Assembly: GCA_023488835.1 (NCBI GenBank) | Contig: JAMDCS010000112.1 | Coordinates: 1-22,117, forward strand | Direction of reading: 5' to 3' | From: Candidatus Bathyarchaeota archaeon | GTDB lineage: Archaea > Thermoproteota > Bathyarchaeia > Bathyarchaeales > UBA233 | DNA length: 22,117 nucleotides | Shown: positions 5,157 through 22,117 of the stretch, piece by piece | How positions within the stretch are numbered: position 1 is the stretch's first letter | How the letters are laid out: each line of letters starts with the position of its first letter | Program-made: the position numbers and the translations under genes | Notes under the pieces: model-generated | Database searches by the model: none | Seen by the model: the letters and a program-made list of their open reading frames with translations, nothing else | What the model was told of the DNA's origin: nothing

Positions 5157-5161
5157 TTTTT

Positions 5162-6010: not shown

Positions 6011-6042
6011 TTTGCGCCGACACGATAAAGATGTGCTGGGGC

Positions 6043-6054: not shown

Positions 6055-6128
6055 GCATTTCCAAGCGTGCTATCTATGTTTATTAAAAACGCTATTTCAT
6101 CTTTTATCTGGAACGCGGAGGCAAAACG

Positions 6129-6389: not shown

Positions 6390-6395
6390 CTTGGA

Positions 6396-6692: not shown

Positions 6693-6701
6693 AAAAGGGT
6701 T

Positions 6702-6824
6702 TTACTCGTTTGTCTGCTCTTCTTCCTTGCCGTAGTACGCGTACAGGAAGATAAGTAGTAGAGCAATAAACGTTGAGCCCATCAACAGGTACTGGAGTGT
6801 TACGAAGTATGCGCCTAGATCCAT
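6702..6824 (-). CDS. 40-residue single-span membrane protein
   Basis: A short ORF beginning MDLGAYFVTLQYLLMGSTFI, with one hydrophobic span (about residues 8-30) and an acidic soluble tail (KEEEQTNE). An AAGGAG lies eight bases before the ATG, which is good support for translation. It follows the SWIM-domain gene by 45 bases on the same strand and may share its transcript. I do not recognise the family. Size and layout resemble small accessory subunits of membrane complexes, but no such complex is encoded nearby. Confidence 0.6.
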   Translation of the reverse strand: MDLGAYFVTLQYLLMGSTFIALLLIFLYAYYGKEEEQTNE

Positions 6825-6869
6825 CGGAGGTTCTCCTTGTATTTACCTACTGTTGTAGCATCTTCATAT

Positions 6870-7283: not shown

Positions 7284-7331
7284 TACACTAGCTACTCTAA
7301 GGACTAATGTTAAGGTGGAGTTTTTAGGCTT

Positions 7332-7928: not shown

Positions 7929-7962
7929 ACAGTCACCAACCTTAACCTTGGTTTTTCAATCC

Positions 7963-7972
7963 AATAAATTTA
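7963..7972 (-). promoter_or_regulatory. TATA box for Hsp20
   Basis: The stretch AATAAATTTA is centred about 40 bases upstream of the Hsp20 ATG, which predicts a leader of roughly 12-15 bases. No obvious HSP-specific operator is visible beside it. Confidence 0.45.
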
Positions 7973-8052
7973 TTGTTACAAATGATAGGATTGGATGTTG
8001 CGTTTGTTTTTTCTTAGTAGTTGTGCTGAAATGGTTGCTATACACAACAACA

Positions 8053-8140
8053 ACAACCAGCCGATTGCCCAAAACCTTGCTTTTTGGCCTCTGAGTTTGG
8101 TTTGGGTTGCAGGTTGGTTGTGCAGGCTGCCACAAGCAGC
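8053..8140. other. long imperfect inverted repeat plus short hairpin, candidate structured RNA
   Basis: ACAACCAGCC (8053-8062) can pair with GGTTGGTTGT (8112-8121) with one G-U. After an internal loop, CCCAAAACC pairs with GGTTTGGG with one bulge. A second hairpin, GCTGC-CACAA-GCAGC, follows at 8126-8140. The segment lies in about 770 bases (7929-8695) with no secure gene. It may be a small RNA or only a chance fold; no promoter or T run is placed convincingly around it. Confidence 0.25.
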
Positions 8141-8364
8141 ATGGTAGTGTAATTTTGTGAGCCACATAAGGGCAAAGCGCAAGTAAGTAATGACTTAGCA
8201 TGCGTCTTTTTTTTGTTGTTGCGCTCAGAAACCACATAAGTATATTAGCATTCTTGAGAGGAGTTAAAGTAGCGATTAAGAAGCGCTGAATTGTTTTTTT
8301 TGAGCTTGAATTTTTTCAGGTTCGCAGTTAAGCTGGTTTGGTGACTTAAATTTTGGGGTCTCAA

Positions 8365-8478
8365 ATGAAAGTTGCTGTGAAGCAAGCCTTTGACGCTGTC
8401 GATGCAGTCCTTTTTGAAGCCGCTTTGGTACTCAACGCGGTAGAAACTCAATACAAACAGAAAGAATACGTCAGTTGA
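8365..8478 (+). CDS. possible 37-residue ORF, unknown
   Basis: A short open frame beginning MKVAVKQAFDAVDAVLFEAA that would form one amphipathic helix. GGGG lies six bases before the ATG. No family is recognised, and an overlapping 91-codon frame on the opposite strand looks less protein-like. It may be chance. Confidence 0.22.
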   Translation: MKVAVKQAFDAVDAVLFEAALVLNAVETQYKQKEYVS

Positions 8479-8695
8479 TGTCGCGCAAAAAAGCTTGCCG
8501 CTAAACATTTTAGGGTTCATTTTTTAGTAAACTGCCTATTCTTGGCAACATTTTTCCTTTCTGAGATAGCTTGCTAAATGGATCTTTCTTCGTTAAATTG
8601 TCTTTTCAATGGTAACATCTCAGCAAATGGGTTTTAAAAGTTTAAATGAAGGAAAACAAACTAAAAAGACACGGCTAGAAAAAACGTGGCAATTT

Positions 8696-8804
8696 GCCGG
8701 GGTAGCCTAGCCTGGCTAGGGCGCCAGACTCATAATCTGGAGTGCAAAAGGGGCCATCGCCCTATGCCCAGAAGTCGCGGGCTCGAATCCCGTCCCCGGC
8801 ACCA
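8696..8804 (+). tRNA. elongator tRNA-Met (CAT), intron-containing
   Basis: All arms can be folded: acceptor GCCGGGG (8696-8702) with CCCCGGC (8794-8800); a D arm at 8705-8722; anticodon stem CCAGA/TCTGG with loop CTCATAA and anticodon CAT at 8731-8733; T arm GCGGG-CTCGAAT-CCCGT; discriminator A and an encoded CCA (8802-8804). G1-C72 and the general sequence match archaeal elongator Met rather than the A1-type initiator. A 31-base insertion sits between the anticodon stem and the T arm; removing it gives the standard variable loop AGGTC. A tRNA-Ile2 with a CAT anticodon is the main alternative but fits less well. A/T-rich promoter-like sequence lies at about 8630-8650. Confidence 0.93.
8743..8773 (+). 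other. tRNA intron in the variable loop (between positions 45 and 46)
   Basis: The intron folds into a bulge-helix-bulge substrate. Exon bases CTGG (8737-8740) pair with intron bases CCAG (8768-8771); the 5' bulge is AGT (8741-8743), cut after AG; the 3' bulge is AAG (8772-8774), cut after AA. An inner helix GCA/TGC and a GGGGC-CATC-GCCCT hairpin lie inside. The central 4-bp helix and both 3-base bulges match the archaeal splicing endonuclease motif; the outer helix is weak, so it is a relaxed form. Confidence 0.8.
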
Positions 8805-8893
8805 CTAATTTTCCTGAAAACCTTTTAAGTATTCGAGCCTAAACACGCAATCAATGAGAACTCAAATAAGACTGACTGAAGGGGTCTGAAGAG

Positions 8894-9073
8894 TTGCGTA
8901 AAAAAGTGGAAATTAAATCTGGCGACGAAATGGTTGCCATAACCAAACATGGAATAACTCGGCACATCTCTGTGTGCCCACTAAAAGAAACCGAAGGTTT
9001 GATTACTGGACTTGATACAGAGAATTTACGAGATAAATCCGACCGTATTGATCTTTCTAGAAAGAAGCACTAA
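8894..9073 (+). CDS. 59-residue protein, unknown
   Basis: An open frame starting at TTG 8894, with a GAAGGGG element about ten bases upstream. It encodes a charged, soluble small protein (start LRKKVEIKSGDEMVAITKHG, later VCPLKETEGLITGLDTENL) that ends in a basic RKKH tail. The N-terminal half could form a short beta hairpin; no motif or membrane span is seen. It lies between the tRNA and the acyl-CoA synthetase gene, 54 bases before the latter. No family is recognised. Confidence 0.45.
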   Translation: MRKKVEIKSGDEMVAITKHGITRHISVCPLKETEGLITGLDTENLRDKSDRIDLSRKKH

Positions 9074-9127
9074 GCAATTTATGATAAGGTTTTTACACGT
9101 TCACTCATATGGTAACTCGATAATACC

Positions 9128-10756
9128 TTGCCAGCAAATAGTAAGCCTTGGTTTAGCAAGTGGCCTGCTGATGTGCCAAAGAGCATAAAGTACCCCGCTA
9201 TCCCTCTTCATGGGCTCTTGCAAGAAACCGCTGAAAAATATGAACAAAAGGTTGCCATAGCCTACGGCGGCTGTGAAATTACTTATGCACAACTGGATGT
9301 TCTTTCAAACCAGTTTGCCCATGCCCTCGCCACTTTGGACATTAAGAAGGGTGACCGAGTGGCGCTTTTCCTGCCCAACATCCCCCAGTTTGTTATCGCT
9401 TATTTTGGGGTTCTCAAGGCAGGCGCGGTTGTTACAGCGATCAGCCCCATGCTTCGGGAGCGTGAAGTAGAGTACCAACTTAACGACTCGGGAGCCCAAA
9501 CTATAGTTGCGCTCGATTCGCTCTATCCGATTGTGGAGAAAGTTAGGGAAAAAACCCCGGTAAAAAACGTCATAGTCACGGGCTTAGCTGATTACAGTTC
9601 CGAAACTGTTTCTCCTCCAAGCATTCCAAACACTTTGTCCTTCAAGCAATTAACCAACGAGAGCCCAGACACAGCGCTAAAAGCTAAGATTAATCCAAGT
9701 GAAGATTTAGCTGCGTTGCAGTACACGGGCGGAACCACGGGAACAGCAAAAGGAGCAATGCTAACCCACCAGAACCTCGTCTCAAATGCCATTGCGTTCG
9801 CGGCTTGGATAAAAGGCTCAATAGCCAAAGAAACTTTCCTAACCGTGCTGCCCCTGTTCCACATCTACGGCATGACCACAAGCATGACCGTGCCCATCAG
9901 TTTAGCTGCAAAGATGGTTCTTTTGCCCAAATTTGACCCTGCAAAGGTTTTGGAAACCATACAAAAGCACAAAGTCAACGTTTTCTGCGGCGTCCCAACC
10001 ATGTATTCAGCACTTATCGCCAACCCAGAGCTGGGCAGATACGATTTAACATCCATTCGGGTGTGCATTTCAGGCGCTTCTTCTTTGCCGCCGCAAGTCC
10101 AAAAGAAATTCATGGAAATCACGGGTGGTTTCCTTGCGGAAGGGTACGGATTAACCGAGGCGTCGCCAGTTACGCATTGCACTCCAGTCGATAAGTCTAT
10201 GCGGACGGTCAAGGTGGGCTCCATCGGGTTGCCCCTTCCTGATACAGATGCGCGAATTGTTGATTTAGAGACAGGTGAAAAAACACTCGCGATAGGCGAA
10301 GTAGGCGAGTTAGCCGTGAAGGGTCCTCAGGTGATGAAGGGGTATTGGCAGAAGCCTCGGGAAACCGCTTTGGTGCTGCGCGGCGGGTGGCTACTCACAG
10401 GTGACATCGCACGTATGGATGCGGATGGGTATTTTTACATTACTGACCGCAAAAAAGACCTCATCAAATACAAAGACTACAGCGTCTATCCAAGAGAAAT
10501 CGAAGACGTCCTCTACGAACACCCAGCCGTGAAGCTCTGTGCGGTCGTGGGCAAACCAGACCCAGTTGCCGGCGAGGTTCCAAAGGCTTTCATAGTGCTC
10601 AAAATAGGCGTGGATACCTCGGCTCAGGAAATCATCGCTTTCGTCAACCCTAAAGTGGCGCCCTACAAAGCTATCCGCGAAGTCGAATTCCGAAAAGAAC
10701 TGCCACTCAGTCCAGCAGGCAAAGTTCTGAGGCGAATGCTTCAAGAGAAAATATAA
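9128..10756 (+). CDS. long-chain fatty-acyl-CoA synthetase / AMP-dependent ligase
   Basis: A 542-residue ANL-superfamily enzyme that activates a carboxylic acid with ATP to an acyl-adenylate and transfers it to CoA. Motifs: the phosphate-binding loop TGGTTGTAKGAMLTH near residues 199-213; the A5 motif GYGLTEASP near 340; GWLLTGDIARMDADGYFYITDRKKDLIKY split over A7-A8 near 420-440; the hinge YSVYPREIEDVLYEHP; and the C-terminal catalytic Lys in PLSPAGKVLRR. Length and the tryptophan-rich N terminus (KPWFSKWPADVPKSI) match the FadD-like group in archaea, whose substrates range from medium- to long-chain or aromatic acids. The start is TTG 9128, since a stop lies in frame just upstream. A TATA-like TTTATGATA is near 9078. 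It ends one base before the convergent gene. Confidence 0.9.
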   Translation: MPANSKPWFSKWPADVPKSIKYPAIPLHGLLQETAEKYEQKVAIAYGGCEITYAQLDVLSNQFAHALATLDIKKGDRVALFLPNIPQFVIAYFGVLKAGAVVTAISPMLREREVEYQLNDSGAQTIVALDSLYPIVEKVREKTPVKNVIVTGLADYSSETVSPPSIPNTLSFKQLTNESPDTALKAKINPSEDLAALQYTGGTTGTAKGAMLTHQNLVSNAIAFAAWIKGSIAKETFLTVLPLFHIYGMTTSMTVPISLAAKMVLLPKFDPAKVLETIQKHKVNVFCGVPTMYSALIANPELGRYDLTSIRVCISGASSLPPQVQKKFMEITGGFLAEGYGLTEASPVTHCTPVDKSMRTVKVGSIGLPLPDTDARIVDLETGEKTLAIGEVGELAVKGPQVMKGYWQKPRETALVLRGGWLLTGDIARMDADGYFYITDRKKDLIKYKDYSVYPREIEDVLYEHPAVKLCAVVGKPDPVAGEVPKAFIVLKIGVDTSAQEIIAFVNPKVAPYKAIREVEFRKELPLSPAGKVLRRMLQEKI

Positions 10757-10757
10757 C

Positions 10758-10967
10758 TTACCGATTATTTTTCCAAAGTTTGAATACGACTTTTTCTCCT
10801 ATCCACGCAAAAAACAAAACCACGAAGAAAGGACCCAAAAAGAAGGCAAAAACAAAGTCGTTGTTGGCGGTTGCTGCTTTGCCTAGGACTTCGGGGTAGA
10901 GGGCGATGCCTGCAATGATTAGGGCAGTCGTCAAGAAGAATGCAACAGCAAACGTGACCCATTTCAT
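10758..10967 (-). CDS. small two-span membrane protein, unknown
   Basis: 69 residues from the ATG at 10967 (a TTG at 10973 would add two). There are two hydrophobic spans at about residues 3-24 and 39-60 with a short polar loop (PEVLGKAATANND) and a basic tail (FKLWKNNR), which places the C terminus in the cytoplasm. No family is recognised. Its stop is one base from the stop of the convergent acyl-CoA synthetase, and the gene is divergent from the 40-residue ORF at 11046. Confidence 0.6.
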   Translation of the reverse strand: MKWVTFAVAFFLTTALIIAGIALYPEVLGKAATANNDFVFAFFLGPFFVVLFFAWIGEKVVFKLWKNNR

Positions 10968-11045
10968 GTTCAATCAATTAACGGTTAAAACACAATGATT
11001 TATTTTAAAGCTTATCAATAATTTGTCATATTCTATGGGATTACT

Positions 11046-11168
11046 ATGTCTAAAGTTGAAAACGGCGAGGAAGACGGCTCTCAAAAGACTCGTCGACTAA
11101 AAATGGAAGCGGAAAAACTTGCTATCGATGACACTGTAGCCAGAGCGAAAAGGCGGCATCAACTTTGA
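11046..11168 (+). CDS. 40-residue highly charged protein, unknown
   Basis: A short frame beginning MSKVENGEEDGSQKTRRLKM, followed by a helix-prone stretch (EAEKLAIDDTVARAKRRHQL). It is soluble and rich in Glu, Lys and Arg, with no motif. An A/T-rich TATA-like stretch lies at about 10996-11005. It ends 15 bases before the hypF start and may be its leader cistron. It may not be a real protein. Confidence 0.4.
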   Translation: MSKVENGEEDGSQKTRRLKMEAEKLAIDDTVARAKRRHQL

Positions 11169-11183
11169 AGAGCGCGGCTTAAC

Positions 11184-13466
11184 TTGCGGATTAAATTAAA
11201 TATTACCGGCATCGTTCAGGGCGTCGGTTTCCGCCCCTTCATCTACCGCTTAGCTGTGCGAAACGGTTTGGCGGGGTACGTTCGGAACAGGGGCGACGCG
11301 GGCGTGGAAATCCTACTTGAGGGAGATGCGCAGAAAATCAAGAGTTTCATGCAGGATTTGACGGCTAAAAAACCGCCTTTAGCAAAAATAGACCAAATCA
11401 AAAAAATTGAGCTCTCAGGAAAAAACGAATTCGAAAGCTTTACGATTTACAAGAGCTCTCAACAAGCGGAAACCTCAGGCTCAATCATTCCCCCAGACAT
11501 AGCCATCTGCAACCAATGCCTAAACGAACTGCGCGACCCCAAAGACCCCCGTTTTGAGTATTTCTTTATCACCTGCACCGACTGCGGTCCACGCTTCACC
11601 ATCATCGAACGCCTGCCCTACGACCGAGAAAACACCACCATGCGCGAGTTTCCGCTGTGCGGTTTTTGCCTAAAAGAGTACGATGACCCGTCGAACAGAC
11701 GGTTTCATGCGCAAACCGTAGCGTGTCCAACCTGCGGACCTAAGGCGTATTTGACAACAAACACAGGAGAGCCAGTCCAAACCAAAGACCCTGTTCAGGA
11801 GGCTGGGAAGTTGCTGTCGGAAGGCAATATCCTTGCCGTGAAAGGGTATGGCGGCTTCCATATTGCAGCGTCCGCCATTCTGGAAAAGCCTCTGATTAGG
11901 CTTCGAACCACGAAGCACCGACGCGAAAAACCCTTCGCCATCATGGCAAAAAGCCTTGACGCCGCAAAAGGGTTTGCCGAAGTGGGTTCGAAGGAACAGG
12001 AACTGCTGTCTTCATCCGCACGCCCAGTGGTATTGCTGAATAAAAGCGGAAACTACAATCTTTCACCGCTGGTTGCGCCGAGCCTGCATAACGTCGGTGT
12101 TATGTTGCCCTACACGGGCTTGCACTACATGCTCTTCGACCAAGTGGGCGACGCTACGTTTGTGATGACCAGCGCGAACCCGCCAAACCAACCCATCGTA
12201 AAAGACAACGGGGAAGCCCTCAAAATTCTCGGCGGCACGGTAGATTATTTTCTATTTCATAATCGGGAAATCGCGCACCGCTGTGACGACTCCGTCATGC
12301 GCGTGCATGGGAACCGCCAAGTGTTCCTCAGGCGAAGCCGAGGCTACGCTCCAGCACCGATTCGGCTCAAGGAAAAATCCAAACGCTGCGTCGTTGGCTT
12401 AGGCGGCGAACTAAACAACACCTCCTGTGTCCTTCTTGACGATAAAGCCTTCATCAGCCAGCACATCGGCGACGTCGAAAACATCGAAACCCGCGGTTTC
12501 CTCCAAGAAGCCACAGGTCACCTTCACCGCTTAACCAACTGCCACGCCCAAATGGTGGCTTGCGATTTGCACCCCAAATTCACCACAACCATCCTTGCTA
12601 AAGGGATGGCTGAAGCAGACGATTCACCATTGGTTCAGGTGCAGCATCATCATGCACATGCGGCGGCTTTAATGGCAGAGCACGGCTTGGATGAAGCTGT
12701 CAGCATCGTTTGTGATGGGTATGGCTATGGCTCGAAAGGTGAAGCATGGGGCGGCGAAGTCCTCTTCTGCACGCGCGAATCAGCCCAGTTTAAACGTCTT
12801 GGGCATTTGGAACCTCAGCCGTTGCTGGGCGGAGACTTAGCGAGCCGTTACCCCGTACGGATGGCGGCTGGAATGCTCTCTAAAGCAGGCATAAACGTCG
12901 AAGGTTGGCTGATTCAAAACAGCGGGCATTTGCCTCACGGAAAAACAGAAGCCAAACTAATCCTAAACCAACTAAAAAAAGGCACAGGCACCATGGAAAC
13001 GACGAGTTGCGGGCGGGTTCTGGATGCGGTTGCCGCGGTTTTAGGGGTTTGTTTCGAGCGCAGCTATGAGGGTGAGTCTGCCATGAAACTTGAATCAGCA
13101 GCCTTAGCTGGCAAGGACACTTTGGGGCTTGAGCCCAAGTTGCAGGGGGCTGTTTTGGATACTTCCTGCCTGATGGGAGCAATTTTTGGCAGTTTGGGTA
13201 GGGTTTCTACTGCAGATTTAGCTTATTCTGCTCACGCTTACTTGGCAAAAGGCTTGGCGTCTTTGGCAGAGCAAAAAGCCGCCGAGCAAGGCGTAAAAGA
13301 CGTGGGTTTCTCTGGGGGTGCCGCCTGCAACCAAATACTCGCCCAGCTAATGCGTGAAACCGTCGAGCATGCAGGGCTGCGGTTTTTTGTTCATGAAGCG
13401 GTGCCAGCAGGCGACGGAGGAGTCTCGTTTGGTCAAGCAGTTGTTGCTGGGTTTTCACGGTTTTAG
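11184..13466 (+). CDS. hypF: carbamoyltransferase HypF
   Basis: A 760-residue enzyme that uses carbamoyl phosphate and ATP to place a carbamoyl group on the C-terminal Cys of HypE, the first step in making the cyanide ligands of [NiFe] hydrogenases. Domains in order: acylphosphatase-like (residues 1-85, with GIVQGVGFRPFIYRLA); two zinc fingers (about 108-185: CNQC, CTDC, CGFC, CPTC); a YrdC-like domain (about 200-380, with KGYGGFHIA, RREKPFA and TSANPPNQP); and a Kae1-like C-terminal domain with the VQHHHAHAAALMAEHG metal site near 486 and GFSGGAACNQIL near 710. All key residues seem present and the length is normal. The start is TTG 11184, directly before the acylphosphatase strand. hypC follows after 48 bases. 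Confidence 0.96.
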   Translation: MRIKLNITGIVQGVGFRPFIYRLAVRNGLAGYVRNRGDAGVEILLEGDAQKIKSFMQDLTAKKPPLAKIDQIKKIELSGKNEFESFTIYKSSQQAETSGSIIPPDIAICNQCLNELRDPKDPRFEYFFITCTDCGPRFTIIERLPYDRENTTMREFPLCGFCLKEYDDPSNRRFHAQTVACPTCGPKAYLTTNTGEPVQTKDPVQEAGKLLSEGNILAVKGYGGFHIAASAILEKPLIRLRTTKHRREKPFAIMAKSLDAAKGFAEVGSKEQELLSSSARPVVLLNKSGNYNLSPLVAPSLHNVGVMLPYTGLHYMLFDQVGDATFVMTSANPPNQPIVKDNGEALKILGGTVDYFLFHNREIAHRCDDSVMRVHGNRQVFLRRSRGYAPAPIRLKEKSKRCVVGLGGELNNTSCVLLDDKAFISQHIGDVENIETRGFLQEATGHLHRLTNCHAQMVACDLHPKFTTTILAKGMAEADDSPLVQVQHHHAHAAALMAEHGLDEAVSIVCDGYGYGSKGEAWGGEVLFCTRESAQFKRLGHLEPQPLLGGDLASRYPVRMAAGMLSKAGINVEGWLIQNSGHLPHGKTEAKLILNQLKKGTGTMETTSCGRVLDAVAAVLGVCFERSYEGESAMKLESAALAGKDTLGLEPKLQGAVLDTSCLMGAIFGSLGRVSTADLAYSAHAYLAKGLASLAEQKAAEQGVKDVGFSGGAACNQILAQLMRETVEHAGLRFFVHEAVPAGDGGVSFGQAVVAGFSRF

Positions 13467-13514
13467 ACCAATCTGTTTTTATCGCCGTTTAAAGCGTTTT
13501 AATAACTGATTAGT

Positions 13515-13736
13515 ATGTGTTTAGCGATTCCAGCAAAAATAATGAGCTTAGACGGCACCAAAGCCCATGTGGATTTCGGAGGCGTTTTGCGCGAGGTTAA
13601 CGTGTCGCTTGTAGAGGCTAAAGTAGGCGAGTACGTGCTGGTTCATGCGGGCTACGCGATTCAGGTTTTAGAAGAAAAAGAAGCCTTAGAAACCCTCAGC
13701 CTTTGGAATGACGTCTTGGCTTCTGCTGGAGAATAA
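13515..13736 (+). CDS. hypC: hydrogenase maturation chaperone HypC
   Basis: A 73-residue HypC/HupF family chaperone. The N terminus MCLAIPAKIM contains the essential Cys2, exposed after Met removal, which helps to carry the Fe(CN)2CO group to the large-subunit precursor with HypD. The OB-like core (HVDFGGVLREVNVSL, GEYVLVHAGYAIQVL) is complete. It lies between hypF and hypD as in many archaeal clusters; spacing to hypD is short and co-transcription is likely. Confidence 0.95.
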   Translation: MCLAIPAKIMSLDGTKAHVDFGGVLREVNVSLVEAKVGEYVLVHAGYAIQVLEEKEALETLSLWNDVLASAGE

Positions 13737-13752
13737 GTGGCAAGTTGAGATT

Positions 13753-14841
13753 ATGGCGCAAAACCTGAAGTTCCGAAACCCCGAGCTGGCACATAGCATA
13801 GCCCAGAAAATCAAGGCTGTGGCGCCGAAAAAGGGGCAAGTCAAGTTTTGTCATGTTTGCGGAACCCACGAATGGACCATAACCCATTTTGGTTTGCGCA
13901 GTTTGTTGCCTGAGAATGTTGAAGTCATCGCTGGACCCGGATGCCCCGTCTGCATTGTGCCTGCGGCTGAAATCGACGAGGCAGTGCAATTAGCCCAAAA
14001 AGGCATCGTGGTAACGTGCTTTGGCGATGTTTTGCGTGTGCCAGGCAGCCAATCTTCGCTCTTGGAAGCTAAAGCGGCTGGCGCTGACGTCCGAATCGTA
14101 TATGCGGTCTCAGACGCGGTTGAAATGGCTAAACGTGGACCTGAAAAAGAGTTTGTGTTTTCAGCCGTCGGATTCGAAACCACCGCCCCAATCACAGCCC
14201 TTGAAGCGCTCGGCGATTTGCCCAAAAACTTCAGCTTTCTAGTTTCTCACCGTTTAATTCCGCCCGCCATGGAGCTTTTGCTCGGCGTTGGCGACTTACA
14301 GATTGACGGGTTCATCGCGCCTGGACACGTAAGCGCAATCATAGGCTTAAAACCCTACGAGCTGTTTACCCGTGTTTATAGGATGCCCACGGTTGTGGCT
14401 GGCTTTGAGCCCAACGACGTTTTGATGGGAATCTACATGCTTCTAAAACAGGTCAGCGAAAGCGACGCGCGGCTGGAGAATGAGTATTCGCGTGTGGTTA
14501 AGCCTGAAGGCAACGTAAAGGCGCAGGAAATGATGAAAAAAGCCTTCGCCGTCACTGCGGGAAACTGGCGCGGCATCGGAAGACTCCCCGACTCAGCACT
14601 GCAACTGCGAGAATCACTTAAACAGTTTGACGCACGTGAAAAGTTTGGGGTTCATGTGGAGCAGGGCAAAGACATCCTCCTCGGGTGCGAGTGCCACCTT
14701 GTCATCATCGGAAAAATCAAACCCAAAGAATGCCCCATGTTTATGAAAGCCTGCACCCCCGCAAAACCCGTTGGTGCCTGCATGGTCAGCAGCGAAGGAA
14801 CCTGCCGCGTCTGGGCAAAAAACGTTGCAGTTTTGGGTTAG
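13753..14841 (+). CDS. hypD: Fe-S protein HypD, hydrogenase Fe(CN)2CO assembly
   Basis: A 362-residue scaffold that, with HypC, holds iron while cyanide from HypE and CO are added. Conserved blocks: CHVCGTHE near residue 32, GPGCPVC near 60, VGFETTAP, FIAPGHVSAIIG and EPNDVLMGIYML. The C-terminal Cys-rich domain (GCECHLVIIGKIKPKEC, ACTPAKPVGACMVSSEGTC) ligates a [4Fe-4S] cluster. A longer frame opens at 13708 and would overlap hypC by 29 bases; the ATG at 13753 puts the start right after hypC and just before the family's conserved N terminus, so I use it. The stop codon overlaps that of the convergent hypE by four bases. Confidence 0.95.
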   Translation: MAQNLKFRNPELAHSIAQKIKAVAPKKGQVKFCHVCGTHEWTITHFGLRSLLPENVEVIAGPGCPVCIVPAAEIDEAVQLAQKGIVVTCFGDVLRVPGSQSSLLEAKAAGADVRIVYAVSDAVEMAKRGPEKEFVFSAVGFETTAPITALEALGDLPKNFSFLVSHRLIPPAMELLLGVGDLQIDGFIAPGHVSAIIGLKPYELFTRVYRMPTVVAGFEPNDVLMGIYMLLKQVSESDARLENEYSRVVKPEGNVKAQEMMKKAFAVTAGNWRGIGRLPDSALQLRESLKQFDAREKFGVHVEQGKDILLGCECHLVIIGKIKPKECPMFMKACTPAKPVGACMVSSEGTCRVWAKNVAVLG

Positions 14842-15941
14842 CAGATTCTTGGGACGGGGTCGCCCACTGGCTTTGCGATTATTCTTTTGCCGCCAACAAG
14901 CGTCTGCATTGCTACGCCTTTGAATTGTGTGGTTGTTTCGCCGATTATTTGTGCATCCTTGCCTTCGGATGTTTGCTTTAGGAATTGCAGGATTTCCTGT
15001 GCTTTTTCTGGTACTGTGCCGATGATGATTTTGCCCTCGTTCCCAACTTCTAAAGGGTCTAAGCCGAGCATTTCGCATGCGGTTTGCACATCTTGATGGA
15101 TGGGAACTTTGTCTTCTTGGATTAGGATGCCGATTTTTGATTTTTCTGTCCATTCATTTAGGGCGTCTGCCAATCCGCCCCTGGTTGGGTCCTTCATGGC
15201 GACGATCCCGCCGACACTTCCGAGTAAGCTTTGCATCATGCGGTTAAGCGGTTTTACATCGGATTTTATTTCACTGCCAAACTTCAAGCCCTGCTGCGCC
15301 GAAAGCACCGCCAAGCCATGGTCGCCGATGGTGCCTGATAGGATGATTTTGTCGCCTGCGGCAAGGTTGGAATCGAGCGCCCAGCGGGTTTTAAGCTCCC
15401 GATATTTCCTGACCACTTGCAGGTTGCTCTCCAACGCTGCCGTACGTTTTCCAATGCCTGAGACATTCATGACGCAGCCGCCTAAACTGCCCCTCTCCAC
15501 CACCTTCGTATCCCCCGTAACAATGCCAACGCCCGCCTCAACACAAGCCTGACGCATGGAAGCAAGAATCTTCTCCAAATCGGAAATCGCCAAACCCTCC
15601 TCCAAAATGAGTCCGCAAGCCAACGCATAAGGCTCCGCGCCCAAACACGAAATATCGTTAACCGTTCCAGAAATTGATAAGCGCCCGATGTCTCCGCCTG
15701 GGAAAAAGATGGGTTTAACCGCGTGAGAATCGCTTTTGAAAACTATGTCGCCGATGACAGCTGCGTCATCCATCGCTTCCAATGGCACTTCGGCTTCGTT
15801 GCCCAGTCCGCCAAAATACTTCACAATGTGGTTCTTGACTAAATCGTGCATGACTGAGCCGCCAGCACCATGCAGCATAGTGATTTTCTCGTTTTTACTC
15901 GCCATTCCGCTTGCTTCCCGATAAACAGATTCAATAGCCAT
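14838..15941 (-). CDS. hypE: carbamoyl-dehydrating enzyme HypE
   Basis: A 367-residue PurM/AIR-synthase-like enzyme that dehydrates the thiocarbamate made by HypF on its own C-terminal Cys to a thiocyanate, the cyanide donor. Seen: KITMLHGAGGSVMHDL near residue 20, the glycine-rich ATP region; DDAAVIGD; GGDIGRLSISGTVNDI; MKDPTRGGLADALNE; and the invariant ending PRIC. It starts with the ATG at 15941; an internal ATG at 15905 (MASKNEKI) is closer to the usual family N terminus. It is transcribed against hypF-hypC-hypD, whereas these four genes are commonly co-directional. A degenerate copy of its first 35 codons and upstream region lies at 20281-20410. Confidence 0.95.
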   Translation of the reverse strand: MAIESVYREASGMASKNEKITMLHGAGGSVMHDLVKNHIVKYFGGLGNEAEVPLEAMDDAAVIGDIVFKSDSHAVKPIFFPGGDIGRLSISGTVNDISCLGAEPYALACGLILEEGLAISDLEKILASMRQACVEAGVGIVTGDTKVVERGSLGGCVMNVSGIGKRTAALESNLQVVRKYRELKTRWALDSNLAAGDKIILSGTIGDHGLAVLSAQQGLKFGSEIKSDVKPLNRMMQSLLGSVGGIVAMKDPTRGGLADALNEWTEKSKIGILIQEDKVPIHQDVQTACEMLGLDPLEVGNEGKIIIGTVPEKAQEILQFLKQTSEGKDAQIIGETTTQFKGVAMQTLVGGKRIIAKPVGDPVPRIC

Positions 15942-16067
15942 ACTCTTAGAAGTAAAACATAAACAAATCGCAGATACAAGTTAAAAATTGAACTTTTACA
16001 CTTTGAGCGCTATGCTTTTGCCTGAAATTTTGGCTTGTTAGATTTCTTTTCCCTCCGCTGATTACGA

Positions 16068-16081
16068 TAAATTATATATAC
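16068..16081 (+). promoter_or_regulatory. TATA box for the Cys-rich mini-gene pair
   Basis: An A/T stretch containing ATTATATATA is centred about 55 bases before the ATG at 16131. It predicts a start near 16100 and a leader of about 30 bases that includes a GAGGGTGGG ribosome-binding element. This argues that the mini-ORF is a real gene. Confidence 0.45.
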
Positions 16082-16130
16082 TCTTGACTGACATATAGTC
16101 ACCGTTTGTCTGCCGTGAGGGTGGGATAGA

Positions 16131-16292
16131 ATGGAATCGCGAATTTACCTATTAGAAACCCCAAAAAGATGCACGTATAGGTCAAGTCGCATAGCATGGT
16201 GCAGAAAACTGCAAAAATTCTGCGATGCCCCACATGAATACAACCGCTGTGGAAACTACCAATCAAGAAATCAAAATTTTAAAAATCGTTAA
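16131..16292 (+). CDS. 53-residue Cys-rich small protein, unknown
   Basis: The ORF begins MESRIYLLETPKRCTYRSSR and contains Cys at residues 14, 24, 31 and 40, spaced so that a small zinc site is conceivable. It is strongly basic. The start has a well placed purine-rich element (GAGGGTGGGATAGA) and a TATA box upstream. It is the only frame open across this stretch. No family is recognised. It ends two bases before a second, broken Cys-rich ORF, so both may derive from one locus. Confidence 0.4.
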   Translation: MESRIYLLETPKRCTYRSSRIAWCRKLQKFCDAPHEYNRCGNYQSRNQNFKNR

Positions 16293-16294
16293 TC

Positions 16295-16510
16295 ATGGCA
16301 GCGCCAGCACACACAAAAGAAAACAAGCCAGCTGCTCCTCCAGAAAACCTGTATATACTCTCACAAAAACAGGCAATGCGACATCTGCAAAGTAACAAAA
16401 AAAACTTTCATTAATACGGCTTCACTTTCTGCGAAGACTGCCTAACCTTTTGCACAAGCATCCTTGAACAAGTTAGTGGGGTATGCTATCGGTTATGGAA
16501 ATCAAGGTAA
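16295..16510 (+). pseudogene. frameshifted CxxC zinc-finger-like mini-gene
   Basis: From the ATG at 16295 the frame reads MAAPAHTKENKPAAPPENLY, then ILSQKQ, and soon stops at 16412. A different frame carries RQCDICKVTKKTFIN (16371-16415), and from 16415 the first frame resumes as YGFTFCEDCLTFCTSILEQVSG. Joined, these give CDIC...FCEDCLTFC, which reads as a compact zinc knuckle. Two compensating one-base shifts, near the A run before 16371 and near 16413, are needed. The tail runs into the convergent gene at 16473. Either it is a pseudogene or two sequencing indels break a real small protein. The partner family is not recognised. Confidence 0.35.
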
Positions 16511-17042
16511 CGAAAAAATCGTTGATATTCGTTTGGTTCGTTGCCAAAATCAATTGGACAGTGTTTGTTTGTCCGCTGGCTAAAACAAGCCCTGTTTGGT
16601 CAGCCGAAGTTGTGGCGAAATCGGAAGGTGACAGGTTTATGGAAGGATAGACTACGTCATAGGCTAGCAGGGTTGCTTTCAGGCATAGGTAGGCGGTGCC
16701 GTCGATAGGCGCTGTTGGAGTGCCTGTTGATGGGGGCGGGTTCTCGCTTGTATAGTCGTTGCGCAGTGTGAGGTTTATTGTGTAGAGCCCTCCATCTTGG
16801 ATTACTCGTTGTCCGTCGGCTGAAGTGTATGTTTGGTTGGTAGGCGTGAAGGAAGAAGTTGCGGAAACCATAGCGATTCTGCTCTCGCTGCCACGGTATA
16901 AGAGGTACTGTGAGGTGGAGTTCTGAGTTTTCTGCGGCATCGGTTCACTAAAAAACAGAACAAAAACAGCTGACAAACCTGAAACAAGAAGCAGAATTAT
17001 TCCAGCAATTACAGCAATTTTTCTCCGCTTACCCTTCACCAC
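16473..17042 (-). CDS. exported membrane-anchored protein, 189 residues, unknown
   Basis: A basic start (MVKGKRRK) and one hydrophobic span (about residues 9-31) anchor an extracellular domain of about 155 residues. That domain contains several Asn-X-Ser/Thr sequons (NSTS, NQTY, NLTL, NLSP) and beta-rich, Ser/Thr-rich sequence, including TYTSADGQRVIQDGGLYTIN. No catalytic motif or known fold is recognised. The GTG start at 17042 follows GAAGG. The gene lies 17 bases after the stop of the 1018-residue exported protein and is almost certainly in the same transcript, so the two probably act at the same place on the cell surface. Confidence 0.75.
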   Translation of the reverse strand: MVKGKRRKIAVIAGIILLLVSGLSAVFVLFFSEPMPQKTQNSTSQYLLYRGSESRIAMVSATSSFTPTNQTYTSADGQRVIQDGGLYTINLTLRNDYTSENPPPSTGTPTAPIDGTAYLCLKATLLAYDVVYPSINLSPSDFATTSADQTGLVLASGQTNTVQLILATNQTNINDFFVTLISITDSIPH

Positions 17043-17059
17043 TAATCAGCCTTCATTCT

Positions 17060-20000
17060 CTATTTCTCTTTAATGTATAAAGCAGTAGTTCCCCTCAAAA
17101 CAACCCTCGCAAACGAATGATAGGTTCCGTTGAGTCCTTGCTCTTCAGAGAAGAACGTTAAATGCACCACGCGCCCAATCTCCGGTTTCCCGTTAACTAA
17201 GTTCACGATGTCGTATGTTTTTATCTTGTCAGCCATCCTTTGAGGGTCAAAGGTGTATTGGAACGTGCCGTTATTCACCTGCAGGACGCCTTCTTCCAGC
17301 ACTGCGCCTGGAATTATGGCTGCGTAATAGACTTGGGCAGAGGTCGTGTTTCCTGTAACGTTGAGGCCTGCTGTCGGCGAGAAAGTCTGGGTTGTAGATA
17401 GGTTGAGCCGCATTCCAGTGCCTGAGGCTGGACCATTTTCGAGCACGAATATCCAGCCGCCTTCGCTAGGCATGCCTGGTACTCTGCCTTGGGTGCCGTT
17501 CCATGTTGCGGTTACGTTATAAACCCATAATCCTGCTTTATCTAGGAGCCACTTGTCTGCGGCTACAAAGTAACCATACTGATCGCCACTGCCCGTCGTT
17601 GCAAAGGTCGTGCCGTTAGGTGCGGTTAGCGTAAAGCGAACGCTGCAGGGAACCACAGGGTCAATCTGCAGCACAGCGCCGAAGGTTGCGCCAACGAAAT
17701 AAACCATTCCCGGTCGCAGGGGCGTGAGGAAGAATCGGGCAGGGGTCCCGTCGGGGCTTGGCAACTCTTCATTTCCTGGTCCGATTATGCGGTTGTTGTT
17801 GCTGCTTTTGGGCAGTATGAAGGCGCTGGCTTGGTAACCTGCATACGCTGGAGTTTGCCCATTGTTTCTCAGTACAACCCCGCCTAGGAAGCGGTAGATG
17901 TCTCCGGGCATGTCGCCGTTGTTTGAAGCGCCGATTTGTCCGCCGAAACTGTTGGGGCTCGTCGGCCAATAGGGTGCGCGAATGTTGTCATGGGAAACTA
18001 TGAACCTAGAGTTGAATCCCGGTCTGGGAGCTGAGCCGTAGTAGTATTGTAGGTCGGTGATGTATTCGGGGAACATCTCGGGGGATAAGCCGTTGCTTGT
18101 TTTGATGATTATGTTGGATCTGCCTATGGTCTGCAGACTTGTATTGTAAGTTGCATTGCTGCCTTTTACAGTGTAAGTCATTACTGGCTCGATTTTGTTA
18201 GACCCTTGCTGTTCACTTGCAATCAAGAGAACATCATAGGCGTTGTAGGGAAAGTTAATGTGATCCAGCACCGAAGTGCCGTTAGGCAGGGTATATCCTT
18301 CCCAACGCTGCTCGCCGCGGTCGCCAATCGCTCCGCCTGGCAGACTAATCTTCTTTCCATGCGCTTCAATGGACGAATCCAAGGGATACACGACGCCTGC
18401 ATGACGCATCGCCGAAACCCACAGCGTACCCTGTGTGTCCCAGTAAGTGGCAAGCACTGTTGCGTAATATTCTCCTGGCGCGGTTAATGGAAGAGGCTTA
18501 AGTCCCTGCATTGCCCCAAAAATTCCGCCAGATGTCGCTTGCCCAATTGAAACAACGGTGGTAACGTTGCTGGGGTCAGAGTTGAAGTAGAGGGATGCTT
18601 TGACGGTTACGTTGGCTGCCACTGGCGGGTTAAAAGCTATGTCTCGTCCATAGCGGTTTCCGACATTGTAGGGTTGCCCCTGAAAAGTCGCCGTCGCCAA
18701 AGTTAATCGTTCGGCAATCCAGAAAGTGTAGTTTCCGCCGCCTTCATAGCGATTGCCCCAAATGTCTTCAATCAAGCCCTTTGCCTCAATTGTGTAGTTG
18801 CCGTATGCCGGGGGTTTCCAGGCGGTGAAGCTGGAGTTTTTGGTGGTTGCGCCGTTTCCTCTTCGGGCTAAAAAGGCGGCTGTGCCTAAGTCTTTGATTG
18901 TTCCGTTTGGATAAGTTATCTTTACTGACCAGTTGCCATGGTCATATCTCCATGGAATGTTGCGCTGAGAATTCGCGTTATCCAAAAGAAATGTGGGCTC
19001 CAAATTGTAGCTAAGTGCAGCGCCGCTTGTGCTAAACCGCGGCAGGATGATTTCGTCATGGATTAAGTTGCGTGGGGAAATTGCCACTTTGCTCTCGTCC
19101 TCTTTAGCTACGACGCCCCGATAACCGTTCGAGTTGTAATCCCAAAGGAGCGCCCAATAGCTTCTGCGGTTAATCTGTGCGCCATCCACCCAGTTCCCGT
19201 AGGCGTCGATTCCGCTTGCAGGTATGGGCGGAGAGAAAACGCATGAAACATTGTTTAAGTCGGTGGGTCTAGTTGCGATGCCGTTACTGTTAAAGTTGTA
19301 CCTACTGTTGCCTGACTTGAAGCCAAAGTCCAGTCTCAACCTGTAGATTCCAGGCGGCAGATTTTGGGGCAAGGTAACGTTAGCCAAGAACTTTCCATTA
19401 TGAAATTGGCTGCTGTCATCGAGTGGGAAGTTGGCGATTGGTACCTCAAGCATGGTGTCCACGGGCGTTTTCTGCGTGTAGCCTGTGTAGCTGGAGATGG
19501 CTGCGCTTCCGCCTCCCTCAATGGGGAGCCCAGCGGGCGTAAGAATGGTGGAAACTGACTCATCCCATGGGGTGTGCTGGTATCCTGCGGGGTCAAAATC
19601 TCTCTCTGCCGTTATGAGGAGGCATGCGTTGTCAACTTTTGGATAGGTAAGTTTGAAATTACTCAACAATTCATCCGAATAATTGAGCGCGGCTGCAATC
19701 CTGACGGTTGCGCCTGCTGTCCATGTTGGTGGGGCAAGCTCAAAGTTAGTCGACCAGTTCCCATTCACGGCGTGAGAGGCTGCTTGAAGTTTTACTTTTT
19801 GCTGGTCGGTTAAATCATCCAGCAGACCATTCGGCGGCACTGGGGTAGGTGTAGGTTGCTGGCTGAAGTATGGTAGTGATGTGGGCTGCTGCGTAGGCTT
19901 GGGCGATGGGGTAGGTGAGGGCGTGGTTGGTTGGGAAGTGAGCGTGGGTTCAGTTGTTGGGGTAGGCGTTGGCGTAGGCTCGCTGGGCTGGCTATTTTGG

Positions 20001-20116
20001 TTGGGTGCAAAAGCGGTAAAGTAGATGCCGACCGATAAGGATGCGGTTAAAATTACGATAAGCGCTGCTGCTAAGAGGGTTTTAGTGGCAAGTGAACTGA
20101 AAAACAGCCGTTTCAC
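17060..20116 (-). CDS. large exported multi-domain cell-surface protein, 1018 residues, unknown
   Basis: Residues 1-12 are basic or polar and 13-35 form a hydrophobic signal or anchor span (TLLAAALIVILTASLSVGIY). Residues 40-95 form a low-complexity Pro/Thr/Ser/Gln linker, a typical stalk. The rest (about 96-1018) is a long beta-rich extracellular region with roughly twenty Asn-X-Ser/Thr sequons, which suggests heavy N-glycosylation and several Ig-like or beta-sandwich domains (for example the NYTIEAKG and LWVYNVTATW strands). No catalytic motif, dockerin, cohesin or known surface-layer signature is recognised, and there is no C-terminal span. It starts with GTG 20116 and has a TATA-like TTTAAAA near 20157. 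It leads a two-gene unit with the 189-residue protein and is likely a surface, adhesion or polymer-binding component; function unknown. Confidence 0.85.
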   Translation of the reverse strand: MKRLFFSSLATKTLLAAALIVILTASLSVGIYFTAFAPNQNSQPSEPTPTPTPTTEPTLTSQPTTPSPTPSPKPTQQPTSLPYFSQQPTPTPVPPNGLLDDLTDQQKVKLQAASHAVNGNWSTNFELAPPTWTAGATVRIAAALNYSDELLSNFKLTYPKVDNACLLITAERDFDPAGYQHTPWDESVSTILTPAGLPIEGGGSAAISSYTGYTQKTPVDTMLEVPIANFPLDDSSQFHNGKFLANVTLPQNLPPGIYRLRLDFGFKSGNSRYNFNSNGIATRPTDLNNVSCVFSPPIPASGIDAYGNWVDGAQINRRSYWALLWDYNSNGYRGVVAKEDESKVAISPRNLIHDEIILPRFSTSGAALSYNLEPTFLLDNANSQRNIPWRYDHGNWSVKITYPNGTIKDLGTAAFLARRGNGATTKNSSFTAWKPPAYGNYTIEAKGLIEDIWGNRYEGGGNYTFWIAERLTLATATFQGQPYNVGNRYGRDIAFNPPVAANVTVKASLYFNSDPSNVTTVVSIGQATSGGIFGAMQGLKPLPLTAPGEYYATVLATYWDTQGTLWVSAMRHAGVVYPLDSSIEAHGKKISLPGGAIGDRGEQRWEGYTLPNGTSVLDHINFPYNAYDVLLIASEQQGSNKIEPVMTYTVKGSNATYNTSLQTIGRSNIIIKTSNGLSPEMFPEYITDLQYYYGSAPRPGFNSRFIVSHDNIRAPYWPTSPNSFGGQIGASNNGDMPGDIYRFLGGVVLRNNGQTPAYAGYQASAFILPKSSNNNRIIGPGNEELPSPDGTPARFFLTPLRPGMVYFVGATFGAVLQIDPVVPCSVRFTLTAPNGTTFATTGSGDQYGYFVAADKWLLDKAGLWVYNVTATWNGTQGRVPGMPSEGGWIFVLENGPASGTGMRLNLSTTQTFSPTAGLNVTGNTTSAQVYYAAIIPGAVLEEGVLQVNNGTFQYTFDPQRMADKIKTYDIVNLVNGKPEIGRVVHLTFFSEEQGLNGTYHSFARVVLRGTTALYIKEK

Positions 20117-20280
20117 GTTTGTGTCGCCACTATATACTTGGCGGTCTACAACTTTTAAATTTTGTCAGACAAAGAGACTCGCAAAACACTCAAAGCTACA
20201 ATGGCGACTAATCAGTGACTAATGTTTAGAATTTTTTGGGAACTCACGCTGGTCTTACGGCAAAGACCCTGTTTGACTGT

Positions 20281-20410
20281 ATCATGCATGACTGACCGCC
20301 AGAAACATGGAACATATTGATCTTTTTGGTTTTTGCTTACCATACCACCTGCTTCCTGCATTAAACGGGTGGGATAGCAAATATTCCAAGATGTAAGAAA
20401 TAAACAAATC
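20281..20410 (-). pseudogene. decayed duplicate of the hypE 5' end and its upstream region
   Basis: Aligned by eye with 15843-15970, this segment matches at about three quarters of positions over the first 80 bases and continues more weakly to a shared AAATAAACAAATC-like end. In the reading direction it still spells MVSKN, then, after a one-base shift, KINMFHVSGG, then, after another, SVMHD. Real HypE has MASKNEKITMLHGAGGSVMHD. Only about 35 codons remain and the rest of hypE is absent. Many of the differences are transitions. It is in the same orientation as hypE. Confidence 0.7.
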
Positions 20411-20454
20411 TTGCTTTAAAAGTCGTTGTGACAAAAAGAGTTTCAAAGAATTGG

Positions 20455-20480
20455 GATAATAAAATGGAGTCTGCTCCCAT
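20455..20480 (-). terminator. hairpin terminator of the 132-residue gene
   Basis: On the minus strand ATGGGAG-CAGA-CTCCAT forms a stem with a four-base loop, followed by TTTTATTAT. It lies about 28 bases after the stop of the gene at 20509. A T run also follows on the plus strand, so it may act both ways. Confidence 0.45.
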
Positions 20481-20508
20481 ATTTTTCTGATTATGCGTTT
20501 TTGGTTTC

Positions 20509-20907
20509 CTAGCTAATATATCGTATTGGGTCAGTCTTTTGCACTTCTTCGTTGTCGCCCCATGTTAGAAGCCACTTGTTCGATTCGTTGGATAAGGGGT
20601 CTTTGATCATTGTTATTTGGGAAAACTCTGCGTCCTTTGCATCTTTGTAGCTTGCCATGAGGTCTTTTAGAAGCTCATCTGTCCAGTTGCAAATTATGGA
20701 GGCTTCGTTTCCTTTAGGGTTTGTGGCTACTAAATGTAAAAAATAGTCGCCTATTGGAATTTCTTTAACTGGGCACGTGCTATCTGTTTTTTGCATAATT
20801 TCGATGGTGTGCACTTTGAGGGTTTCATCTTTTTCTTTAATTATTAGATGAAAGCCTTTTCCAACGAAGTGTTTCATGAACTGTTTCATTAGATTGATTT
20901 TTTTCAT
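20509..20907 (-). CDS. 132-residue soluble protein, unknown
   Basis: A Lys- and Glu-rich soluble protein that starts MKKINLMKQFMKHFVGKGFH and alternates predicted strands (FHLIIKEKDETLKVHTIEIM, GDYFLHLVATNPK, EASIICNW) with a helix (TDELLKDLMASYKDAKD), an alpha/beta layout with no motif that I recognise. It has two Cys (in STCPV and IICNW) but no metal pattern. The ATG at 20907 follows GGGAGAAG, and a TATA box lies at 20940-20946. The codon use is more A/T-rich than in the hyp genes, which could indicate recent arrival. It is divergent from ftsZ across a short shared promoter region. Confidence 0.7.
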   Translation of the reverse strand: MKKINLMKQFMKHFVGKGFHLIIKEKDETLKVHTIEIMQKTDSTCPVKEIPIGDYFLHLVATNPKGNEASIICNWTDELLKDLMASYKDAKDAEFSQITMIKDPLSNESNKWLLTWGDNEEVQKTDPIRYIS

Positions 20908-20939
20908 CTATCTTCTCCCATTTTTTTAGGGTTTAGGTT

Positions 20940-20955
20940 GTATATAAGGTATATT
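20940..20955 (-). promoter_or_regulatory. TATA box for the 132-residue gene
   Basis: A TATATA-containing stretch lies about 33-45 bases upstream of the ATG at 20907. The ftsZ TATA box lies about 75 bases to the right on the other strand, so the two genes share a compact divergent promoter region. Confidence 0.45.
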
Positions 20956-21019
20956 ATGAAACCGTAATACGAAATTCCAAGTTTTATTGTGTGTTAATGT
21001 TGAGCATTGCTACAAAAAC

Positions 21020-21058
21020 CTTTATATATGATATAAGATATCTTGTATCTTGCGATAC
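21020..21058 (+). promoter_or_regulatory. ftsZ TATA box and overlapping palindromes, candidate operator
   Basis: The TATA box (CTTTATATAT) is at about 21020-21029. Directly after it, 21030-21049 reads GATATAAGATATCTTGTATC, a 20-bp near-perfect palindrome (nine of ten base pairs match). It overlaps a second inverted repeat, GTATC-TTGC-GATAC, at 21045-21058. The predicted transcription start falls in this region, where a bound dimeric repressor would block initiation. Confidence 0.5.
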
Positions 21059-21076
21059 CAATTAGAGGAAATGAAA

Positions 21077-22117
21077 ATGCAAACTGAACAAGAAACAGAA
21101 CAATTTGTTGAAAAACCTTATGCAGAAACTCAAGAAGAAAAAATTGAAAAATTTGCAAGAATGGCAGCACCAACAGTAATCGCTGTTGGACTCGGCGGAG
21201 CAGGATGCAACGTAATATCATGGGTCAAGGACAAAGGAATCACAGGCGGCAAACTAGTAGCAGTAAACACTGACGCTACCCATCTTATGACCGTCAAAGC
21301 AGACAAAAGAATCTTGATAGGCGAAAAACTAACTCGAGGACTCGGCAGCGGAGGCTACCCAGAAGTAGGCGAAAAAGCTCTATACGAGACCGCCGGCGAA
21401 GTCATCCATGAATTATCCAGAGCTAACATTATATTCATGGTAGCTGGCTTAGGCGGAGGAACAGGAACTGGAGCAATTGTCGGCTTAGCAGACGCTTTAC
21501 GTAAAAAATGTGCAGGAAATCCAATGGCGCCTTTACTAGTGGGCGTGGTCACTCTTCCGTTCGAAGTTGAAACGGCCAGAATGGCTGCAGCAAAGAGGGG
21601 ACTAAATCGACTAAAGGGACTATGCGATACTGTCGTAGTGATTGACAACAACCGACTCGTAAAAGTTGCTGGAAACTTACCGTTCCGTGAGGCTTTAGGC
21701 GTAGCTAACACCACCGTCGGCAAATTCGTAAAAGGCGTAACTGAAACCATAACCACTGCAAGCCTAATCAACATGGACTATGCTGACTTAAAAGCAATCA
21801 TGGCTGGATCAGGCTTAGCTTCGATAGGCATCGGAGAAGGTACTGGTGAAAACAGAGTCGAAACAGCAGTAGATAAAGCATTAAACGGTCGTCTACTCGA
21901 CATAGAAGACGTTACAAAAGCCCGAGGTTTACTCATCCATGTCTCAGGCGGAGAAGACCTCACACTTAGCGAAGTCAACCGAGCTGCTGAAATTATGAAA
22001 CGTTCATTGCCACCAAAAGCAAAGATCATCTGGGGCGCAAGAGTCGATAATGAGCTAAAAGGCGCCGTTTCAGTAATGGCTGTTGTAACGGGCGTAGAAA
22101 GTGCATTCTTGCGAATT
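21077..22117 (+). CDS. ftsZ: cell-division GTPase FtsZ, partial (runs off the right edge)
   Basis: The frame stays open for 347 codons to the window edge. FtsZ polymerises with GTP into the division ring. Seen: nucleotide-binding GLGGAGCN near residue 36, the NTDA segment, the tubulin signature GGGTGTGA (AGLGGGTGTGAIVG), and the T7-loop catalytic motif NMDYAD near 233, followed by AGSGLASIGIG. All GTPase elements are intact. A charged N-terminal extension (MQTEQETEQFVEKPYAETQ) of about 30 residues precedes the GTPase domain, as in many archaeal FtsZ proteins. The ATG at 21077 has GAGGA seven bases upstream; one at 21071 is too close to that site. The C terminus and any interaction peptide lie outside the window. 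Confidence 0.93.
   Translation, partial: MQTEQETEQFVEKPYAETQEEKIEKFARMAAPTVIAVGLGGAGCNVISWVKDKGITGGKLVAVNTDATHLMTVKADKRILIGEKLTRGLGSGGYPEVGEKALYETAGEVIHELSRANIIFMVAGLGGGTGTGAIVGLADALRKKCAGNPMAPLLVGVVTLPFEVETARMAAAKRGLNRLKGLCDTVVVIDNNRLVKVAGNLPFREALGVANTTVGKFVKGVTETITTASLINMDYADLKAIMAGSGLASIGIGEGTGENRVETAVDKALNGRLLDIEDVTKARGLLIHVSGGEDLTLSEVNRAAEIMKRSLPPKAKIIWGARVDNELKGAVSVMAVVTGVESAFLRI

Follow-up and report, generated by a model that had tools for sequence, protein, structure and literature searches.

A truncated hypE 5' end beside an accessory exported-protein pair as a likely recombination junction between two hypE neighbourhoods in a Bathyarchaeota contig

The 22,117-base stretch of Candidatus Bathyarchaeota DNA analysed here (contig JAMDCS010000112.1, hereafter the window) carries an intact hypE gene, for the hydrogenase expression/formation protein HypE, and a second, truncated copy of the 5' end of the same gene, and between the two lie the genes of a pair of putatively exported proteins (exp189 and exp1018) together with a decayed locus for a cysteine-rich zinc-ribbon protein. 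We consider it somewhat better than an even bet that in this contig two hypE neighbourhoods have been joined by recombination between related Bathyarchaeia, with the truncated gene end marking the place where they meet.

This reading starts from the fragment itself, which is a piece of hypE pseudogene in the right order and on the right strand, without a reading frame. When 15743-16050 was aligned with 20201-20500, a single block was found, pairing 15835-15970 with 20273-20411 on the same strand at a local score of 98, while 2,000 dinucleotide shuffles gave a mean of 19.2 (s.d. 2.5), with 34 as the highest value. When 300-base tiles covering the remainder of the window were scanned on both strands, with those overlapping the fragment/hypE pair itself set apart, the two pieces scored 26-27 at best. 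The block covers the hypE promoter, the leader and the first ~36 codons (counted from the annotated hypE ATG) and is identical at 105 of 134 aligned positions (78%), with a longest identical run of 11 bases; under another gap setting 106 of 137 positions were identical, made up of 37/49 in the leader and 69/88 in the coding part. Two indels interrupt this coding part, which retains an internal ATG and has no open frame. In the local alignment the homology ends at 15970/20411 upstream and at 15835/20273 downstream, the two copies sharing no flank beyond, and no hypE sequence past codon ~36 was found by blastn of 15942-20530 against 99 loci (E 0.01). The junction of fragment and insert is known from one contig only. 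The original prediction had seen here a degenerate second copy of the hypE 5' end and promoter in the same orientation, at 20281-20410, readable in shifted frames and alike at about 77% over 80 bases, and had proposed an alignment against shuffled sequence as a check. That alignment shows the copy to be real and a remnant of the hypE 5' end; the degree of likeness and the loss of frame hold, and only the extent had been taken too short. The features discussed below are as follows.

14838-15941, minus strand: intact hypE, 367 amino acids (TIGR02124 at E 7e-109, above cut-off; Pfam AIRS and AIRS_C).
15942-15975, minus strand: promoter and leader of intact hypE, with the motif GATTTGTTTAT (motif scan of 78 loci).
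16060-16490, plus strand: decayed Cys/zinc-ribbon locus and its upstream region (alignment with the loci of relatives).
16473-17042, minus strand: exp189, 189 amino acids, N-terminal helix and beta sandwich (structure model; relatives listed).
17060-20116, minus strand: exp1018, 1018 amino acids, N-terminal helix and tandem immunoglobulin (Ig)/macroglobulin-like beta domains (structure model; homologues).
20117-20272, minus strand: region upstream of exp1018, where no hypE homology was seen (the same blastn search).
20273-20411, minus strand: hypE 5' remnant with promoter motif, leader and ~36 codons, frame lost (alignment, tree and motif scan).
20412-20508, no strand assigned: spacer between fragment and u132, identical at 76 of 93 aligned positions to the u132-hypE spacer of locus L001, from the related genome G001.
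20509-20907, minus strand: u132, an unnamed protein adjoining ftsZ.
21050-22117, plus strand: ftsZ, cut by the contig end (TIGR00065 above cut-off).

The position of the fragment was then compared with gene order in relatives. Contig C3 of G001 is collinear with the window over 277-15972 and again over 20282-22113, with no match for the insert between them, and the end of u132, the spacer and the fragment align with the u132 end, spacer and hypE start of G001 as one block (score 145), showing that the fragment occupies the position of the G001 hypE. Two G001 intervals exceed those of the window (lux330-fd171, 3,909 vs 179 bases; acs542-hypF, 3,396 vs 427), the insert being one difference among others. 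Scanning genome contigs with HypE yielded 78 loci, of which 76 belong to archaeal records and two (L075 and L077) are bacterial; their fetched flanks differ in length and are short in some. Upstream of hypE, ftsZ and u132 were found at 2 of the 78 (L001, and L070 from G008), and a third genome, G102 (L101/L141), has the same ftsZ-u132-hypE order; the exported-pair block is missing between u132 and hypE in all three genomes. Within the fetched flanks neither exp189 nor exp1018 stood beside hypE at any of the 78 loci (E 1e-5). The block is thus accessory, as the original prediction had it, and the island-free loci for which it suggested a search are those of G001, G008 and G102. The intact second hypE that it also proposed to look for did not appear: none of the eight relatives searched (G001, G002, G003, G007, G008, G009, G102 and G104) has a second close copy. 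In each, HypE finds a single close counterpart (79-91%) and a single distant one (28-31%), the latter presumably a superfamily paralogue.

In G001 and G102, ftsZ-u132 sits between hypE and a ribosomal protein operon, and at L002, L004, L007, L010, L011 and L014 this operon is divergent to hypE with no query gene between. Its identity comes from Pfam matches of the L001 copies to ribosomal proteins L22, S3, S17 and L14, which rules out the hydrogenase operon that had been considered for it. The hypE tree places L002 close to the window (support 82/81), and the ribosomal operon lies upstream of its hypE; in its genome, G002, searches for u132 (E 0.001) and for ftsZ (E 1e-60) both came back empty. 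At E 1e-8, u132 is matched in 22 of 256 genomes of the G001 class, and in every one of the 22 loci fetched (L100-L121) ftsZ is matched as well; no Pfam family was found in u132 at E 0.001, and we regard it as a candidate FtsZ partner. The two hypE copies of the window therefore have different upstream neighbours, the zinc-ribbon locus for the intact gene and ftsZ-u132 for the fragment, and each arrangement is known from other genomes.

A step in divergence coincides with this change of neighbours, the ftsZ-u132 side differing from the rest of the contig. Among 17 genes compared with G001, the number of synonymous substitutions per synonymous site (dS) was lowest for ftsZ (0.18) and u132 (0.30), while the other 15 ranged over 0.36-0.94 (14 of them over 0.62-0.94, hsp20 being at 0.36). 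The hyp genes hypE, hypD, hypC and hypF are all at background level (hypE 0.90, hypD 0.73, hypF 0.76). For ftsZ, u132, hypE, hypD, hypF and acs542, the distance to G102, and likewise that to G008, is about the same whether measured from the window or from G001, although many of these distances are near saturation, and ftsZ and u132 thus do not look like slow genes. Considering the low dS together with this check, the ftsZ-u132 side split from G001 more recently than did the rest of the contig, which points to a gene exchange whose edge lies at the fragment or close to it.

The neighbour on the other side, the locus divergent to intact hypE, consists of an N-terminal Cys module (16131-16292) and a frame-broken zinc ribbon (about 16293-16480). 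Two Cys-rich mini-ORFs (open reading frames) had been described in this place; both are what is left of a Cys/zinc-ribbon locus that relatives also carry. Matches to this locus occur in 14 of 256 genomes, and eight loci (L003 and L142-L148) were viewed in context. Among these the window region scores best against L144 (G101, 297) and L142 (G001, 254), and against the L003 homologue it scores 123, where 300 shuffles reach at most 81. At L142, L144 and L145 the locus follows topoisomerase VI genes (identified by Pfam for L142 and by likeness of the sequence starts for L144 and L145), with an extra large ORF between in L144 and L145. Its adjacency to hypE is known from two other genomes: a zinc-ribbon gene adjoins hypE in G003 and G104, and at L003 and L146 the locus is divergent to hypE, as in the window. 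The zinc-ribbon/hypE spacer of the window is not alignable with that of L146 or L003 (scores at shuffle level), so that the common adjacency rests on gene order alone. A conserved stretch, CCGTTTGTCTGCC with close forms, was also seen just after the TATA-like box of the zinc-ribbon locus (in 16060-16490 and in L142, L143 and L146); it apparently lies in different frames in different relatives and may be a conserved leader or operator.

The exported pair of 189 and 1018 residues described in the original prediction is present, with an N-terminal helix in each structure model. The exp189 model (predicted local distance difference test, pLDDT, 84.9) has a helix at residues 5-31 followed by strands, and that of exp1018 (pLDDT 86; predicted template modelling score 0.84) is all-beta behind its helix. 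Judging from these models both proteins are presumably exported or membrane-anchored, and they likely act as a membrane-anchored surface or scaffold module. No Pfam family was found in exp189 at E 0.001. Among 7,995 scored candidates, 457 homologues of exp1018 were found at E 0.001, the best being 85% identical over its full length; exp1018 is a member of a large uncharacterised family, in which the best 120 of the 457 reach down to ~50% identity and a few are named bacterial. Close relatives on metagenome contigs include P0047, 92% identical over 66% of the query, and P0001, at 85%. Some listed homologues have extra Pfam accessions, for an M4 peptidase (confirmed in P0100) or a phosphodiesterase/sulfatase domain. 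For exp189, 65 proteins were listed, the window's own among them. Seven contig sizes (35696, 355869, 14868, 41320, 178218, 9767 and 9469) are common to the two lists, which suggests that exp189 and exp1018 travel together.

In genomes exp1018 is rare, being matched at E 1e-20 in 1 of 256 genomes of the G001 class, over residues 660-1017 only (L140), and in none of 398 genomes sampled from the phylum, in a search run without a positive control. The L140 match to the C-terminal third lies at 9955-11055 of that locus, with no other query gene in the 19.9 kb around it. A sequence search for a solved relative of exp1018 found none (best E 0.1), and PADLOC returned no match. Partial Foldseek matches to macroglobulin and complement proteins (template modelling score about 0.1) were rejected, as they show only Ig-like sandwiches; weak NCBIfam and PHROG matches were set aside as touching only the N-terminal anchor and a Pro/Thr-rich linker, and so were low-scoring matches from 11 of 14 genomes, none of which extends past residue 164.

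Homology and position of the fragment, gene order, the divergence step and the rarity of exp1018 are observed; from them we infer a direction of transfer, a manner of joining and an order of events. A tract consisting of ftsZ, u132, the promoter and codons 1-36 of hypE would have been imported from a G001-like lineage, the fragment being its cut edge, and the intact hypE with hypD-C-F would be the resident gene, the accessory exported pair and the decayed zinc-ribbon locus lying in between. The joining would have been homology-assisted and yet illegitimate, the tract having broken inside hypE at about codon 36 and having been joined to unrelated DNA upstream of exp1018, after which the presence of an intact hypE may have allowed the fragment to lose its frame.

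One tree result speaks for this explanation, and several results weigh against it. In a tree of 19 hypE rows and the fragment, with three tested groupings that were fixed before the tree was seen (G001 and L011 having already been suggested by an alignment comparison), a sister placement of fragment and intact hypE was disfavoured (log-likelihood difference 9.0; approximately unbiased, AU, test p 0.036). This value argues only weakly that the two are not sisters. Grouping the fragment with G001 was not rejected (p 0.28), but in the best tree its partner is L011 (89/96) and not G001. At the discriminating sites the fragment, only ~139 bases long, matches the window's hypE 20 times, G001 11 times and neither 20 times, and sites polarised with three outgroups gave 6:3, 7:7 and 10:4 for the window's hypE vs G001; some of the sites matching the window's hypE may be old shared states lost in G001. 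In the hypD-C-F tree a single clade (100/100) unites L002 and L071 with G001 and the window, and within it the window and G001 as sisters are disfavoured (p 0.042). The low divergence is confined to two genes, one of which (ftsZ) is cut by the contig end. Intergenic identity to G001, inflated by permissive global alignment and computed with the two long G001 intervals skipped, does not set the fragment side apart and thereby leaves the exact edge unplaced.

The same layout could have arisen in the reverse direction, which we think possible though on balance unlikely. Here ftsZ-u132-hypE would be resident, and exp1018-exp189-zinc-ribbon-hypE would have entered through hypE homology by a single crossover or by homology-facilitated illegitimate recombination, displacing the resident hypE 5' end, which then decayed; the low ftsZ-u132 divergence would be a separate exchange. 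The layout is indeed the outcome of a one-sided crossover in hypE, u132 adjoins hypE in G001, G102 and G008 so that this order may be old, G003 and G104 with their zinc-ribbon gene beside hypE represent a possible donor type, and a comparable process with displaced gene parts was proposed in PMC5361080. However, intact hypE, hypD, hypC and hypF are at background divergence from G001 with no jump seen along hypE, and L002, of the same clade, lacks ftsZ-u132 matches.

A tandem duplication of hypE within the window's lineage, one of the two origins offered originally, is improbable; one copy would then have decayed, and the exported pair would have been inserted or captured. Such a duplication would account for the direct repeat in one orientation and for the discriminating sites, whose 20 to 11 excess for the window's hypE over G001 is matched by the lean of the polarised counts. 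It would not account for the divergence step at ftsZ-u132, and against it stand the fragment's place at the G001 hypE position beside u132-ftsZ, the different upstream neighbours of the copies, the lack of any hypE sequence found past codon ~36, the 0 of 8 relatives with a second close hypE and the disfavoured sister placement. The other origin offered, an insertion between two hypE copies, comes nearer the mark, except that the copies belong to two different neighbourhoods. That the assembly is a chimera of two organisms is very unlikely: the window appears to be the whole contig, the divergence step lies inside it and the junction is seen in one assembly, but a chimera would not produce the decay seen in the fragment on its own side, and the search found, on the exp1018 side of 20272/20273, no hypE sequence by which an assembler could have been misled. 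Least credible of all is a site-specific integrative element that used and rebuilt the hypE 5' end as its attachment site. Repeats of a gene end do flank the insert, but they are only 78% alike with no identical run beyond 11 bases; no integrase or transposase family was found by Pfam in exp1018, exp189 or the two mini-ORFs, nor in NCBIfam or PHROGs for exp1018 and exp189, and exp1018 had no confirmed match in viral contigs (13 stretches fit a pattern, none was confirmed) and no match in plasmids.

Whichever side was imported, the fragment still carries a promoter motif. In degenerate form this motif was found at 44 of the 78 hypE loci, at most 150 nt upstream of codon 13, and in strict form at 15, as compared to 5 of 1,560 shuffled controls for the motif; the true start of hypE is perhaps codon 13, near 15905, since most relatives' matches begin near there. 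The strict form is retained in the fragment, at a distance of 284 bases from where exp1018 starts. The motif is thus intact while the coding part has decayed, with the exported pair downstream on the same strand. We see a slim chance that this orphaned hypE promoter now drives exp1018 and exp189, in which case an accessory cell-surface module would be co-regulated with hydrogenase maturation. By eye, AT-rich stretches resembling a TATA box can also be seen immediately before exp1018 itself, which is why we hold promoter capture to be only a possibility.

Elsewhere in the window, hypF, hypC and hypD lie on the plus strand and hypE on the minus strand, each above its NCBIfam cut-off. A leuA-like gene (537-1882) seems split over two frames near 690-720, its G001 homologue being one frame of 510 codons, and 8696-8801 is a 106-base tRNA match by Rfam, with none from ARAGORN, possibly an intron-containing archaeal tRNA.

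Read as a recombination junction, the contig would preserve a legible trace of genes exchanged among uncultured Bathyarchaeia, in which a truncated gene end marks where the two neighbourhoods were joined. Which module lies upstream of hypE (ftsZ-u132, the zinc-ribbon locus or the exported pair) varies by lineage, and an accessory exported pair can reach a conserved chromosomal setting with no recognised mobile-element gene alongside.

A truncated gene at a recombination junction is a type of scar that is already known. Relative to HypE as defined by TIGR02124, the fragment is the 5' end of that gene, reduced to about one tenth of it and without its frame. In PMC5361080, homology-facilitated illegitimate recombination with displaced gene parts was proposed for type VI secretion system effector-immunity arrays in Vibrio cholerae; as in that model, one flank would have been joined via homology and the other without it, and parts of the resident gene set would be left beside new genes, whereas here the host is an archaeon, the left-over is the 5' end of a maturation gene with its promoter, and the mechanism is inferred from one contig. 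For FtsZ in Bathyarchaeia, PMC9723716 served as background only. The replacement flexible genomic islands associated with homologous recombination in PMC4033161 likewise place accessory genes at a chromosomal position between conserved genes; the present case is one insert of ~4 kb, with no exchange against alternative cassettes of equal function seen.

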